Shown piece by piece: positions 1 to 54,929 of a stretch of DNA of 64,000 nucleotides. A model generated the notes under the pieces. It saw only the letters and a program-made list of their open reading frames with translations, did no database searches and had not been told where the DNA came from. Source of the DNA: Pseudobdellovibrionaceae bacterium. GTDB lineage: Bacteria; Bdellovibrionota; Bdellovibrionia; Bdellovibrionales; UBA1609. A program made the position numbers and the translations under genes. Numbering within the stretch: position 1 is the stretch's first letter; each line of letters starts with the position of its first letter. Location: assembly GCA_023954155.1 (NCBI GenBank), contig JAMLIO010000001.1, positions 124,001-188,000 of the forward strand. The letters run 5' to 3'.

Positions 1-555
1 CCTGATTCAGGCAGCATCCATATTGGAAACGCAGACATCACGGCAATTCCTTTACATGAACTACGAAGACATATCTCTTTAGTTTCCCAAGATGTCTTTT
101 TATTTAGAGACACCTTAGAAGAAAACATCCGAGCCTCTATAGTCAACGCCACTCACGCTGATATCGAGGCCGCTGCCAAAGCCGCTAATGTTCATAGCTT
201 TATTCAATCTTTACCCGATGGATACCAGACCTTAGCGGGAGACCGAGGACAAAGGCTCAGCGGTGGCGAAAAACAGCGCATCTCCATCGCTCGCGCTTTT
301 TTAAAGAACGCCCCCATCCTTCTATTAGACGAAGCCACAAGCGCCTTAGACACCGACAATGAAGTCGAGGTCCAGAAGGGTCTACAGACCCTTATGCAAG
401 ATAAAACGTGCTTTGTCGTCGCTCATAGGCTGTCCACCATCAGAAACGCTGATCGCATCATCGTCCTTAAAAACGGCGAAGTGGTTCAAACTGGAACACA
501 CCAAGAACTCGCCGACCAACAAGGCGAATACCACCGCCTCCTTAATCTTCATTAA
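1..555 (+). CDS. ABC exporter, C-terminal ATPase part (cut by window edge)
   Basis: Frame 1 is open from the first base to TAA at 553-555, giving the last 184 residues of an ABC-type ATPase. A Q-loop (SLVSQDVFLF), the ABC signature (RLSGGEKQRISIARA), Walker B (ILLLDEATSALD) and the H-loop (VVAHRLSTIRNAD) are visible. The order and the D-loop are typical of fused exporters with a membrane half followed by an ATPase, such as MsbA-like lipid flippases; the membrane half lies outside the window, so the substrate is unknown. Oddity: its last eight codons and the stop lie inside the left arm of a long inverted repeat (530-767), so the gene end has been copied in inverted form downstream. Confidence 0.93.
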   Translation, partial: PDSGSIHIGNADITAIPLHELRRHISLVSQDVFLFRDTLEENIRASIVNATHADIEAAAKAANVHSFIQSLPDGYQTLAGDRGQRLSGGEKQRISIARAFLKNAPILLLDEATSALDTDNEVEVQKGLQTLMQDKTCFVVAHRLSTIRNADRIIVLKNGEVVQTGTHQELADQQGEYHRLLNLH

Positions 556-767
556 CTTCTATCTAGGTTTTGAATGTAAATACCTCATCAAAACAGCCCT
601 CCGAGGCGAGCAATGCGTATCCGACATGCGTTGGCCTGTGGGACTTTAGTCCCAGAGGTTAATGCATGCCGAAGACGCTTTGCACCCGAAGTCGGCTGGG
701 CTGTTTTGATGAGGTATTTACATTCAAAACCTAGATAGAAGTTAACGAAAATTAAGGAGGCGGTGGT
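530..767. repeat. Fold-back element A: 70-bp inverted arms around a 98-bp core
   Basis: Left arm 530-599 and right arm 698-767 are reverse complements over 70 bp with two mismatches (547/750 and 551/746). The core is 600-697. Positions 626-667 in the core form a hairpin: 12 pairs including three G-U wobbles, one G-G mismatch, 7 perfect pairs (TGGGACT/AGTCCCA) and a TT loop. The wobbles all fit an RNA read in the direction of the upstream gene. The left arm includes the last 26 bases of the ABC transporter coding sequence, so it is probably original host sequence and the right arm an inverted copy. The architecture matches elements B and C, but the core sequence is only weakly similar. Confidence 0.9.
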
Positions 768-16034: not shown

Positions 16035-16223
16035 AACTAATTGTCTTTTGTCTTTACTTAAAGCTTGAAGTCTCTTTTTAATTGTACATACTCAAAATGC
16101 TCAGACAGTGACGTTTGGCACAGTTTTGCGTTCGCAAAACAGCGCCAAGCCGAACTCGCATTTCGACCATATACAATTAAAAAGAGACTTCAAGCTTTAA
16201 GTAAAGACAAAAGACAATTAGTT
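16035..16223. repeat. Fold-back element B: 52-bp perfect inverted arms around an 85-bp core
   Basis: Left arm 16035-16086 and right arm 16172-16223 are perfect reverse complements over 52 bp. The core 16087-16171 contains a nearly perfect apical hairpin (GTTTTGCG, TT, CGCAAAAC; flanked by TTGGC/GCCAA). Outside the hairpin the core reads ACTCAAAATGCTCAGACAGT on the left and ends CATTTCGACCATA on the right. Element C has the same core in opposite orientation, but its arms are unrelated. The right arm contains the stop codon (16218-16220) and part of the last sense codon of the lipoprotein gene, so the element abuts a gene end. No transposase frame is present. Confidence 0.95.
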
Positions 16224-17597
16224 CTTGTGGCAGATCGTGACATAGTGGGGGCAGACGAAGAGCGTTCCTAACCCACAACGTCCGTCATAAGTAATTCCAG
16301 TTACAGTATGCCCCCAACGTGGGCTACTGCGGTCTTCTTCATAGTAGTACGCGATTCTAAAGTTAGGGTTTTGCACGTTGCCCGTTTCTTGTTGCATGTC
16401 ATAGCAGAAATCGGGGCCCTTCGGAACCACACATCCTGGTTTAATATAGGTGACACCACCCACCACAATGGGTCGGGGTAAAGTCACAAACCATGCGTCA
16501 GCAGGTAAAATATTACGAATTCTATCAAGTCTCATCCTCTCTTCATTATTTGAAGGGACAGGGTCTGGCCCCACTTCACAGACTTCATAGTTTTCCGCTT
16601 GTTCTGCCGCCGTAAGGTCATCATCAGGTGTAGGGTCAAAGGTTAAACGTTTTGCATCTTCAGGTCTAACAATCACAAAACGTTCATTACAGTTCCAAGA
16701 TTCACCCACGATGCTTTGATTTTCTAAATTCACAACGTTACTGACTGTCATCACTCTCGCAGGAGAACTGAGCATTCTTCCATCATACTGTTGGAAGCGC
16801 ACATCAAAGCCTCGTCCAAATACTGAAGTCAAAGCATTCGAGTCACCAGATGCTGTATTATAGGGCGAACGCACCCAACCATGGGGCTTACCCCCAGCCT
16901 GCTCTCCCACAGGAAGCGGGAAGGTGATTGTAATATAGTGAGAGTTTGCCAATAGACTTCTAATACCCGCTGCCGTACTTTCATTGGTGGCAAACTTTAC
17001 CGACCCATCAAAATTTTTGTACACAAGCCCTGGAAGACCAGAGATATAATTCATGTAATTACCACTTCCCATGGCTAACATTCTTCTTACATAGTGCTCA
17101 TTGCTAAAATAATTTTTGCCTTCAAAAAACATCAGTCTCGCATAAGCGTCTGTGATCCTCTCGCTTTGCTGAGGCGCTTGGTAATCCTGCAAATAATTTC
17201 TTTCACGTATTGACAATACAGCACCCGTCTCGGTGTTTCGCTCACTGATATGCAAAGCCCTCGCCTGTATATCTGTGTTGTACGCACTCAATTGCGATAA
17301 AACACTAGGTTTAATACGCACACCAGAGCCAGGAAAGAACGCTCCCGCTTTAATGGTAAACGCTCGCCCATCTGCATCGGCAAACCTTCCTGAACACGAC
17401 ATATAACCCATTTGGTCAATGGTCGTTTCAAAGGCAAAGGGCATATTCTGAAGTTCACCCTGAATCAGAGCATCAATAGACGGCATCTGCCTATTATTCA
17501 AATCACTACAATTCTGAAAAAGCAAAATCGTAGAGAAACCAAATAATAATGTCCAAAAGGTTTTTCTAATACTTCTTTTTGGAGAGACTCTTACCAT
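16218..17597 (-). CDS. Large lipoprotein of unknown function
   Basis: 459 residues. A basic start, hydrophobic stretch and lipobox-like LLFQNCSD near residue 29 suggest a type II signal peptide and membrane anchoring. The mature part has an N-terminal segment with MGYMSCSGRFADADGRAF and several Cys residues toward the C-terminus (CYDMQQETGN, RCGLGTLFVCPHY, ICHKN), so disulfides are likely. I recognise no domain. Ribosome site AAGGTG precedes ATG 17597. It is divergent from priA. The stop codon lies in the right arm of fold-back element B, which forms its 3' untranslated region. Confidence 0.8.
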   Translation of the reverse strand: MVRVSPKRSIRKTFWTLLFGFSTILLFQNCSDLNNRQMPSIDALIQGELQNMPFAFETTIDQMGYMSCSGRFADADGRAFTIKAGAFFPGSGVRIKPSVLSQLSAYNTDIQARALHISERNTETGAVLSIRERNYLQDYQAPQQSERITDAYARLMFFEGKNYFSNEHYVRRMLAMGSGNYMNYISGLPGLVYKNFDGSVKFATNESTAAGIRSLLANSHYITITFPLPVGEQAGGKPHGWVRSPYNTASGDSNALTSVFGRGFDVRFQQYDGRMLSSPARVMTVSNVVNLENQSIVGESWNCNERFVIVRPEDAKRLTFDPTPDDDLTAAEQAENYEVCEVGPDPVPSNNEERMRLDRIRNILPADAWFVTLPRPIVVGGVTYIKPGCVVPKGPDFCYDMQQETGNVQNPNFRIAYYYEEDRSSPRWGHTVTGITYDGRCGLGTLFVCPHYVTICHKN

Positions 17598-54298: not shown

Positions 54299-54451
54299 GC
54301 CCTCTTGGGCGTGGAGCTGGGATTTTATTATATATGGTCGAAATGCGAGTTCGGCTTGGCATGATTTTGCAAACGCAAAATTATGCCAAACGTCACTGTC
54401 TGAGCATTTTGAGTATATATAATAAAATCCCAGCTCCACACCCAAGAGGGC
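54299..54451. repeat. Fold-back element C: 37-bp inverted arms around a 79-bp core
   Basis: Left arm 54299-54335 and right arm 54415-54451 are reverse complements over 37 bp with one mismatch (54310/54440). The core 54336-54414, read on the minus strand, equals the core of element B from ACTCAAAATGCTCAGACAGT to CGCATTTCGACC except for seven substitutions, all in the apical hairpin (54357-54390 region). The arm sequence is unrelated to B. The right arm ends four bases before the rlmH stop codon, so it forms the 3' untranslated region of rlmH. No protein for its movement is nearby. Confidence 0.95.
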
Positions 54452-54455
54452 GGGC

Positions 54456-54929
54456 CTACTCATTGTGATAGGGAATGTTTTTGGCAATCGTAAAGGCACG
54501 ATAGATCTGTTCGGCTAAAACAATTTTAGCAATATGGTGATTCAGCACAAACGGACTAAGGTTAATGGACCACTGGGCCCTGCTTTTGAGTTCTTCTGTC
54601 ACACCAAATGCGCCACCAATAACAAATGTGACGCACTTATAAGTTTCAAGTTGTGTCATCAATGTGGTTGCAAATTTTTCGGAAGTAAGATTTTGGCCAC
54701 CTTCATCACAAAGGATCACATAATCATCTGGTCGAATTTTCTGTAAGATTTTTTCTGTTTCTTTTTGCTTTTTAATTTCTTTGTTCTTGCGCTCGGCTTC
54801 TTCTGATTTCACCACGACCAGTTCGATATCACAGAATGCCGATATTTTATCCAGATACATCTCATCTACAGCCTCAAAGGGCTTTATCTTTTTAGACTGT
54901 ATAAAGATGATTTGAATATTTATTTTCAA
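54456..54929 (-). CDS. rlmH: 23S rRNA (pseudouridine-1915-N3)-methyltransferase RlmH
   Basis: 157 residues, standard length. YVILCDEGGQNLTSEKFA and FVIGGAFGVTEELKSRAQWS are the SPOUT-fold knot motifs binding S-adenosylmethionine, and the C-terminus LAEQIYRAFTIAKNIPYHNE (ending His) is diagnostic. It starts with TTG 54929, with GAGAT seven bases before; no ATG is near. Together with obgE, nadD and rsfS upstream it follows an order common in bacteria. Confidence 0.94.
   Translation of the reverse strand: MKINIQIIFIQSKKIKPFEAVDEMYLDKISAFCDIELVVVKSEEAERKNKEIKKQKETEKILQKIRPDDYVILCDEGGQNLTSEKFATTLMTQLETYKCVTFVIGGAFGVTEELKSRAQWSINLSPFVLNHHIAKIVLAEQIYRAFTIAKNIPYHNE

Follow-up and report, generated by a model that had tools for sequence, protein, structure and literature searches.

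REPs, 20-40 nt in size, are headed by GT(A/G)G, and two of them in inverted orientation flank the RAYT gene (PMC2817692). The element described here, three copies of which are located in the window, a stretch of 64,000 nt from a Pseudobdellovibrionaceae bacterium, shares with REPs and BIMEs the many short palindromic intergenic copies per genome, which sometimes occur as inverted pairs, and the complementary mutations that preserve palindromy (PMC2817692). It differs from these repeats in having a core of 60-100 nt without the GT(A/G)G head, the conserved motifs being CTCARACATGCG and CCGAACTCG, in its long unique arms, and in that no Y1 transposase was found in its own genome. The attC sites of integrons, folded single-stranded hairpins in which fixed motifs accompany a variable tip, are similar to the present element in this respect; however, they reside in cassette arrays beside an integrase and lack locus-specific perfect arms. 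In Correia elements the inverted repeats are themselves element sequence, whereas here the repeats differ at every site. A likeness nevertheless exists to the Correia repeat enclosed elements of Neisseria, which are small dispersed repeats with inverted repeats and a conserved core affecting neighbouring genes (PMC2649163).

Template switching between inverted repeats homogenises and lengthens their arms and inverts spacers, as reported for yeast and for hotspots in E. coli, and for quasipalindromes it predicts Watson-Crick identity of the arms, arm extension and loop inversion (PMC8604942 and work cited therein). However, the known cases are short and isolated, while here the process would act on up to about 64 core-bearing sites with arms of 28-102 nt, and a conserved core is always present. 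Perfect coding palindromes in the mitochondria of Nematomorpha, for which template switching has been proposed, are likewise long perfect inverted repeats whose arm identity is kept while the sequence changes; in contrast to the present element they are mitochondrial, lie inside genes and are not reported to have a conserved core (PMC6649704). We found no earlier description, within the open-licence literature, of dispersed repeats that combine a conserved core with arms made locally, and the element, a small dispersed palindromic repeat in kind, appears to be an unusual and undescribed bacterial repeat.

Results

A dispersed hairpin with a conserved asymmetric core

The three hairpins of the window, copies A, B and C (Table 1), are part of about 64 that are scattered over a genome of 2.44 Mb in 15 contigs. 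By BLAST, B-type cores occur at about 40 places in this genome (of the 42 matches listed, two are second-strand or split) and A-type cores at 24 distinct places (37 matches were listed, several of them split or on the second strand). Copy B folds across about 190 nt (16035-16223) with a z-score of -18.7 as RNA and -17.6 as DNA, and copies A and C fold as long hairpins in the same way. The fixed part across copies is an asymmetric pair of motifs, of which CTCARACATGCG (CTCAGACAGTGACG in B) is the 5' member and CCGAACTCG the 3' member (alignment A3), with a variable stem-loop between the motifs and variable arms outside of them. In genus g33, stem-loop and arms are unique to each copy and only a shorter motif pair, CTCARACA/GAACTCG, is kept. 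As the core is an imperfect palindrome that has nevertheless not been homogenised, its asymmetry is probably held by selection, and a core conserved by selection within a dispersed hairpin element is the best reading of these data.

Table 1. Positions, in window coordinates, of the hairpin copies and their parts.
Feature	Position	Strand	Remarks
Core B, 81 nt	16090-16170	+	differs from core C only in the apical segment; about 40 own-genome relatives
Core B, conserved 5' segment	16090-16119	+	
Core B, variable apical stem-loop	16120-16143	+	
Core B, conserved 3' segment	16144-16170	+	
Core B, conserved 5' motif CTCAGACAGTGACG (elsewhere CTCARACATGCG)	16100-16113	+	alignments A1, A3
Core B, conserved 3' motif CCGAACTCG	16150-16158	+	invariant or nearly so in alignment A3 (several families of the order)
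Copy B, left arm	16035-16089	+	unique to the locus; unrelated to arms of identical-core copies
Copy B, right arm	16171-16223	+	outer end overlaps the stop codon of gene 16218-17597 (-)
Copy B, inverted repeat	16035-16100 / 16158-16223		94% complementary
Copy C, overall	54299-54451		
Core C, 81 nt	54334-54414	-	
Copy C, arm on 5' side of core	54415-54451	-	starts 4 nt after the stop codon of gene 54456-54929 (-)
Copy C, arm on 3' side of core	54299-54333	-	
Copy A, overall	530-767		
Core A, second core family	600-697	+	conserved segments 606-630, 668-688; 24 distinct own-genome relatives
Copy A, left arm	530-599	+	holds the final 7 codons and the stop codon of an ABC transporter gene; 97% complementary to 698-767
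Copy A, right arm	698-767	+	inverted copy of the gene end

Several variants of this architecture were observed. In A-type cores at L043-L050, L083 and L084 the apical stem is unique, extended to 20-30 bp and capped by GAAGCCCAAAGGGTTTC-like loops, and at L230 and L148 a core is nested within the apical stem of an oppositely oriented core. An inverted repeat of 51 nt around a 61-nt centre (CAGCAAGCGGGACGCGC...) at L091:17354-17516 (G000:C2:223353-223515) has no match to either the A or the B core and possibly represents a third core family. Contigs of the same genome start at or near element copies (C2:2-90, C9:238-326, C10:1-48 and C13:116-204), where long palindromes probably broke the assembly; the arms of these copies are therefore unreliable.

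Covariation at the apex and in the arms

Cores B and C differ at exactly seven positions (B/C: 16121 C/T, 16123 G/A, 16133 C/T, 16140 C/T, 16141 A/C, 16142 G/A, 16143 C/T), all within 16120-16143, and are identical over the 31 nt before and the 27 nt after the apical differences, as an initial annotation of the locus had stated. The two compensatory changes it described were also recovered, G16123-C16140 beside TTTTGCG being A-T in core C and C16121-G16142 being T-A, and the loop-closing C that is replaced by T does leave a G-T pair on the strand it named. A16120 and C16143, which form an A-C mismatch in core B, form an A-T pair in core C. The same annotation took the conserved segments for the base of the hairpin; however, 50-70 nt more of locus-specific perfect stem lies outside them.

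The covariation it expected among many core copies was found at the apex of 28 distinct own-genome apical segments, in which 91.4% of cells pair versus 86.1 (sd 0.7) after shuffling, 37 cells carry two-sided changes versus 12.5 (sd 3.7), one-sided (G-U) changes number 0, and the covariation score is 0.168 versus 0.074 (sd 0.010); 0/500 shuffles, which ignore relatedness, reached the observed pairing, two-sided count or score. A control in which partners were slid by 1-3 columns gave 0-10 two-sided cells. With the arms included, the count rose to 155 two-sided cells versus 46.9 (sd 5.3) in shuffles, the unique arms being close to independent. Across several families of the order, pairing is kept at the tip while the motif next to it, CTCARACATGCG ... 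CCGAACTCG, looks unpaired and is fixed; a recognised single-stranded site or hairpin would be expected to look like this. The initial annotation had concluded from structure kept at the tip and sequence kept beside it that a protein recognises the core as single-stranded DNA or RNA. The pattern itself stands, and the core may be recognised in this way, but the step from covariation alone to single-stranded DNA or RNA is not supported.

Of the 1306 pairs in the B arms, 1294 are Watson-Crick (99.1%), five are G-T and four A-C, and hence there is no wobble excess. RNA stems under selection usually show appreciable wobble; the window contains no tRNA against which this could be gauged. As the arm pairs are nearly all Watson-Crick and G-T pairs number five against four A-C, templated DNA copying fits better than selection on RNA, and the arm covariation is best read as mainly a signature of DNA copying and not as proof of RNA. 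Both this Watson-Crick identity and the inversion of the apical loop in one B copy (GAAC for GTTC, a single case) agree with what characterises quasipalindromes formed by template switching. The mismatches in the B apical stem comprise 32 A-C (five columns) versus 2 G-T (one column), counts that are inflated by the shared descent of the copies. If one strand is read, this excess would fit wobble on the strand opposite to that named in the initial annotation, which we regard as a lead only; the strand asymmetry is clear only in B, and the A and G groups, with unreliable column registers, give no clean answer.

Arms are specific to each locus

Although about 99% Watson-Crick, the arms, 28-102 nt in length, are unrelated between copies, even where cores are identical. 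The cores of window copy B (L001), L002 and L003 are 100% identical, and yet their perfect arms of 52, 38 and 31 nt are unrelated; similarly, two neighbouring inverted copies in G103 (L304) combine nearly identical cores with 50-nt arms that are wholly different. Outer-arm identity among B copies is 0.34 for four pairs with identical cores and 0.29 at 85-92% core identity, compared to 0.28 for shuffled arms, and over all B pairs it is independent of core identity. In B, the inner arm positions, within 10 nt of the core, reach a between-copy similarity of 0.47. Arms are not always new, since in genus g15 (G029) they are partly common to several copies, with about 30 nt recognisably shared and varying by compensatory changes. 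Across 304 kb (the window and G000:C3:1-240000), every one of the five inverted repeats whose arms reach 24 nt or more and whose spacer is at most 220 nt holds a core inside, so that arms go together with the core and are not seen in its absence; the shuffled 304-kb sequence has no such repeats. The strand that enters the hairpin is G+T-rich in the B arms of G000 (T 0.41, G 0.25, A 0.18, C 0.16), strongly so towards the core. Plain 3'-UTR composition was rejected as an explanation, as the own-genome 3'-UTR background does not match.

Native genes end within several of the arms. The C-terminus of the ABC transporter at copy A aligns with solved ABC transporters into the arm, as do those of an M23 peptidase (L083) and of RimO (L040) with their solved homologues; a conserved C-terminus inside an arm marks the coding side as the original and the other arm as the copy. 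Of 45 arms at which a gene points, 13 terminate 1-9 nt past the stop codon and 17 lie no more than 9 nt from it in either direction; in four copies in other species the arm ends within 0-4 nt of a stop. Arm length is not correlated with the distance to the stop for ungapped arms and is moderately correlated for gapped arms (rho 0.52, distances under 100). We infer that selection against overwriting coding sequence, together with copying in both directions, would account for both classes of arms.

Distribution, associated enzymes and comparison sites

A covariance model identified the element in 19/47 genomes of the family, and a broader one found relatives in 38/141 genomes of the order, in five families; as palindromes match on both strands, the counts of model matches were not taken as copy numbers. 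All named records matched in a broad search for the core pattern were Bdellovibrionales or Oligoflexia MAGs, while the exact own-genome core pattern had no match in a database of genome contigs, and none was found for the core pattern in viral contigs. In G103, G042 and G117 (L304-L311), elements occur two by two in inverted orientation, 100-350 bp apart, and the members of a pair have different, unrelated arms. A gene adjoining an element is oppositely oriented in two related species (L164 versus L176), possibly through recombination between inverted copies.

A search for Y1 transposases (PF01797) gave no match in the own genome, whereas controls matched, and among the loci examined there was no autonomous copy with a gene between core halves. 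A retron-like reverse transcriptase (RVT_1, 324 aa) is encoded after an HTH protein at L091:7794-8768 (G000:C2), 2 kb away from the B copy that has diverged most. Reverse transcriptases are present in 12/19 family genomes with the element versus 7/28 without it; a required partnership was rejected, as G060, G066, G017, G063 and G007 carry elements and lack the enzyme. The product of sbcD cuts long DNA hairpins. The gene was above cut-off in 0/47 genomes of the family versus 8/14 control genomes, and since it is missing throughout the family, its absence may be permissive for long palindromes and does not discriminate which genomes carry the element.

The rpoD-tRNA spacer of genus g33 lacks the element in six relatives. 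At the rpoD 3' end of G042, the element is located upstream of an intact native terminator, and in G116 (L322) motif pair and arms enclose, as apical stem, the apparent native rpoD terminator hairpin of relatives. In g14, a 14-nt empty spacer corresponds to an insert of about 480 bp bearing the element and other repeats. These rpoD and g14 sites show gain, loss or movement of the element and not the copying step: among them no pair with and without the element reveals the template flank, and the rpoD 3' UTRs are too diverged to read the event.

Discussion

We give about even credence to a reading in which a hairpin element dispersed in Bdellovibrionales acquires its arms, and keeps them perfect, through copying of the flank by fold-back or template switching. 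The inherited unit would be the core, the asymmetric motif pair around a short variable stem-loop, which would spread to new intergenic sites. The core hairpin would then bring the two flanks together, one of them would be copied onto the other by fold-back or template-switch DNA synthesis to yield a long inverted repeat, and repeated template switching would keep the arms perfect. Under purifying selection, a gene-side flank would be overwritten only up to the stop codon; alternatively, copying would carry the gene end away from the gene to the opposite flank. Unrelated arms around identical cores, Watson-Crick arms, the two-sided changes at the apex, native gene ends, arm ends just after stop codons, the occurrence of arms only with the core, the inverted loop and the family-wide absence of sbcD argue for such copying, whereas the lack of a site that reveals the template flank, the shared arms in G029, the failure to find a mobility enzyme in the own genome, the loose match between reverse transcriptases and the element, and the G/T-richness of the B arms, which simple copying does not predict, argue against it. 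The data show directly that the core is conserved, that the arms are perfect and unique, that they covary by Watson-Crick pairs only and that some take in native gene ends; that copying makes the arms, that the element moves and that a factor recognises its core is what we infer. A more specific and rather doubtful version is that a mobile hairpin inserts by self-primed fold-back synthesis, each insertion making its own inverted arm without target-site duplication. In this version, the core would be joined to one flank, fold and prime the copying of that flank, and the motif pair would be recognised by a factor, yet to be discovered, that acts on single strands in the folded state. Hairpins already present could be enclosed by this factor too, for which the rpoD terminator of G116, a site that simple insertion of the core does not explain, would be an example.

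An unlikely alternative to DNA copying is a structured RNA, in which a long 3'-UTR hairpin or a terminator or processing site is selected on the transcript and the motif pair forms a protein-bound internal loop. The very stable RNA fold (z about -19), the conserved internal-loop motif, outer arms that often end at stop codons and the one-sided A-C mismatches at the B apex would all be in line with selection on RNA, as would the excess of convergent over divergent flanks in the own genome (18 versus 5, p=0.011). However, flank orientation is unbiased in other genera (28/23/23/18), for which reason a terminator role for all copies was rejected, and the arms have no wobble excess. Moreover, the G+C stem followed by a U-tract that marks intrinsic terminators was not found in the copies read, none of which, by eye, has a U-tract directly after the outer arm end; the G042 element lies upstream of a terminator that is intact; and Rfam returned no family at the gathering threshold, with only generic long-hairpin matches below it.

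It might further be speculated that the element is a palindromic transposon derivative, MITE- or REP-like, whose inherited terminal repeats have drifted by compensatory change. We consider this quite unlikely. The shared, compensatorily varying arms of g15, the similarity of inner arm positions next to the B core and the g14 insert facing an empty site are what such descent would leave, but 100% identical cores bear unrelated arms, native conserved genes end inside arms, and the own genome has no Y1 transposase; the shared terminal repeats typical of MITEs are absent from B, where outer-arm identity equals the shuffled expectation, and in part present in g15. Insertion of the core into the loop of pre-existing long palindromes is very improbable: the nested cores at L230 and L148 would suit it, but the 304 kb contain no core-less long, closely spaced inverted repeats and thus no pool of targets for loop insertion.

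It is common practice to take covariation as proof that an RNA is functional, and the strong, Watson-Crick-only covariation of the arms, best explained by DNA copying, offers a clean natural test of that inference. With many natural long palindromes in bacteria that apparently lack SbcD, the stability and growth of palindromes become directly testable. There is a real chance that the mode of insertion is itself new and, should each insertion indeed create its own inverted arm, small elements would have a novel means of marking their target.
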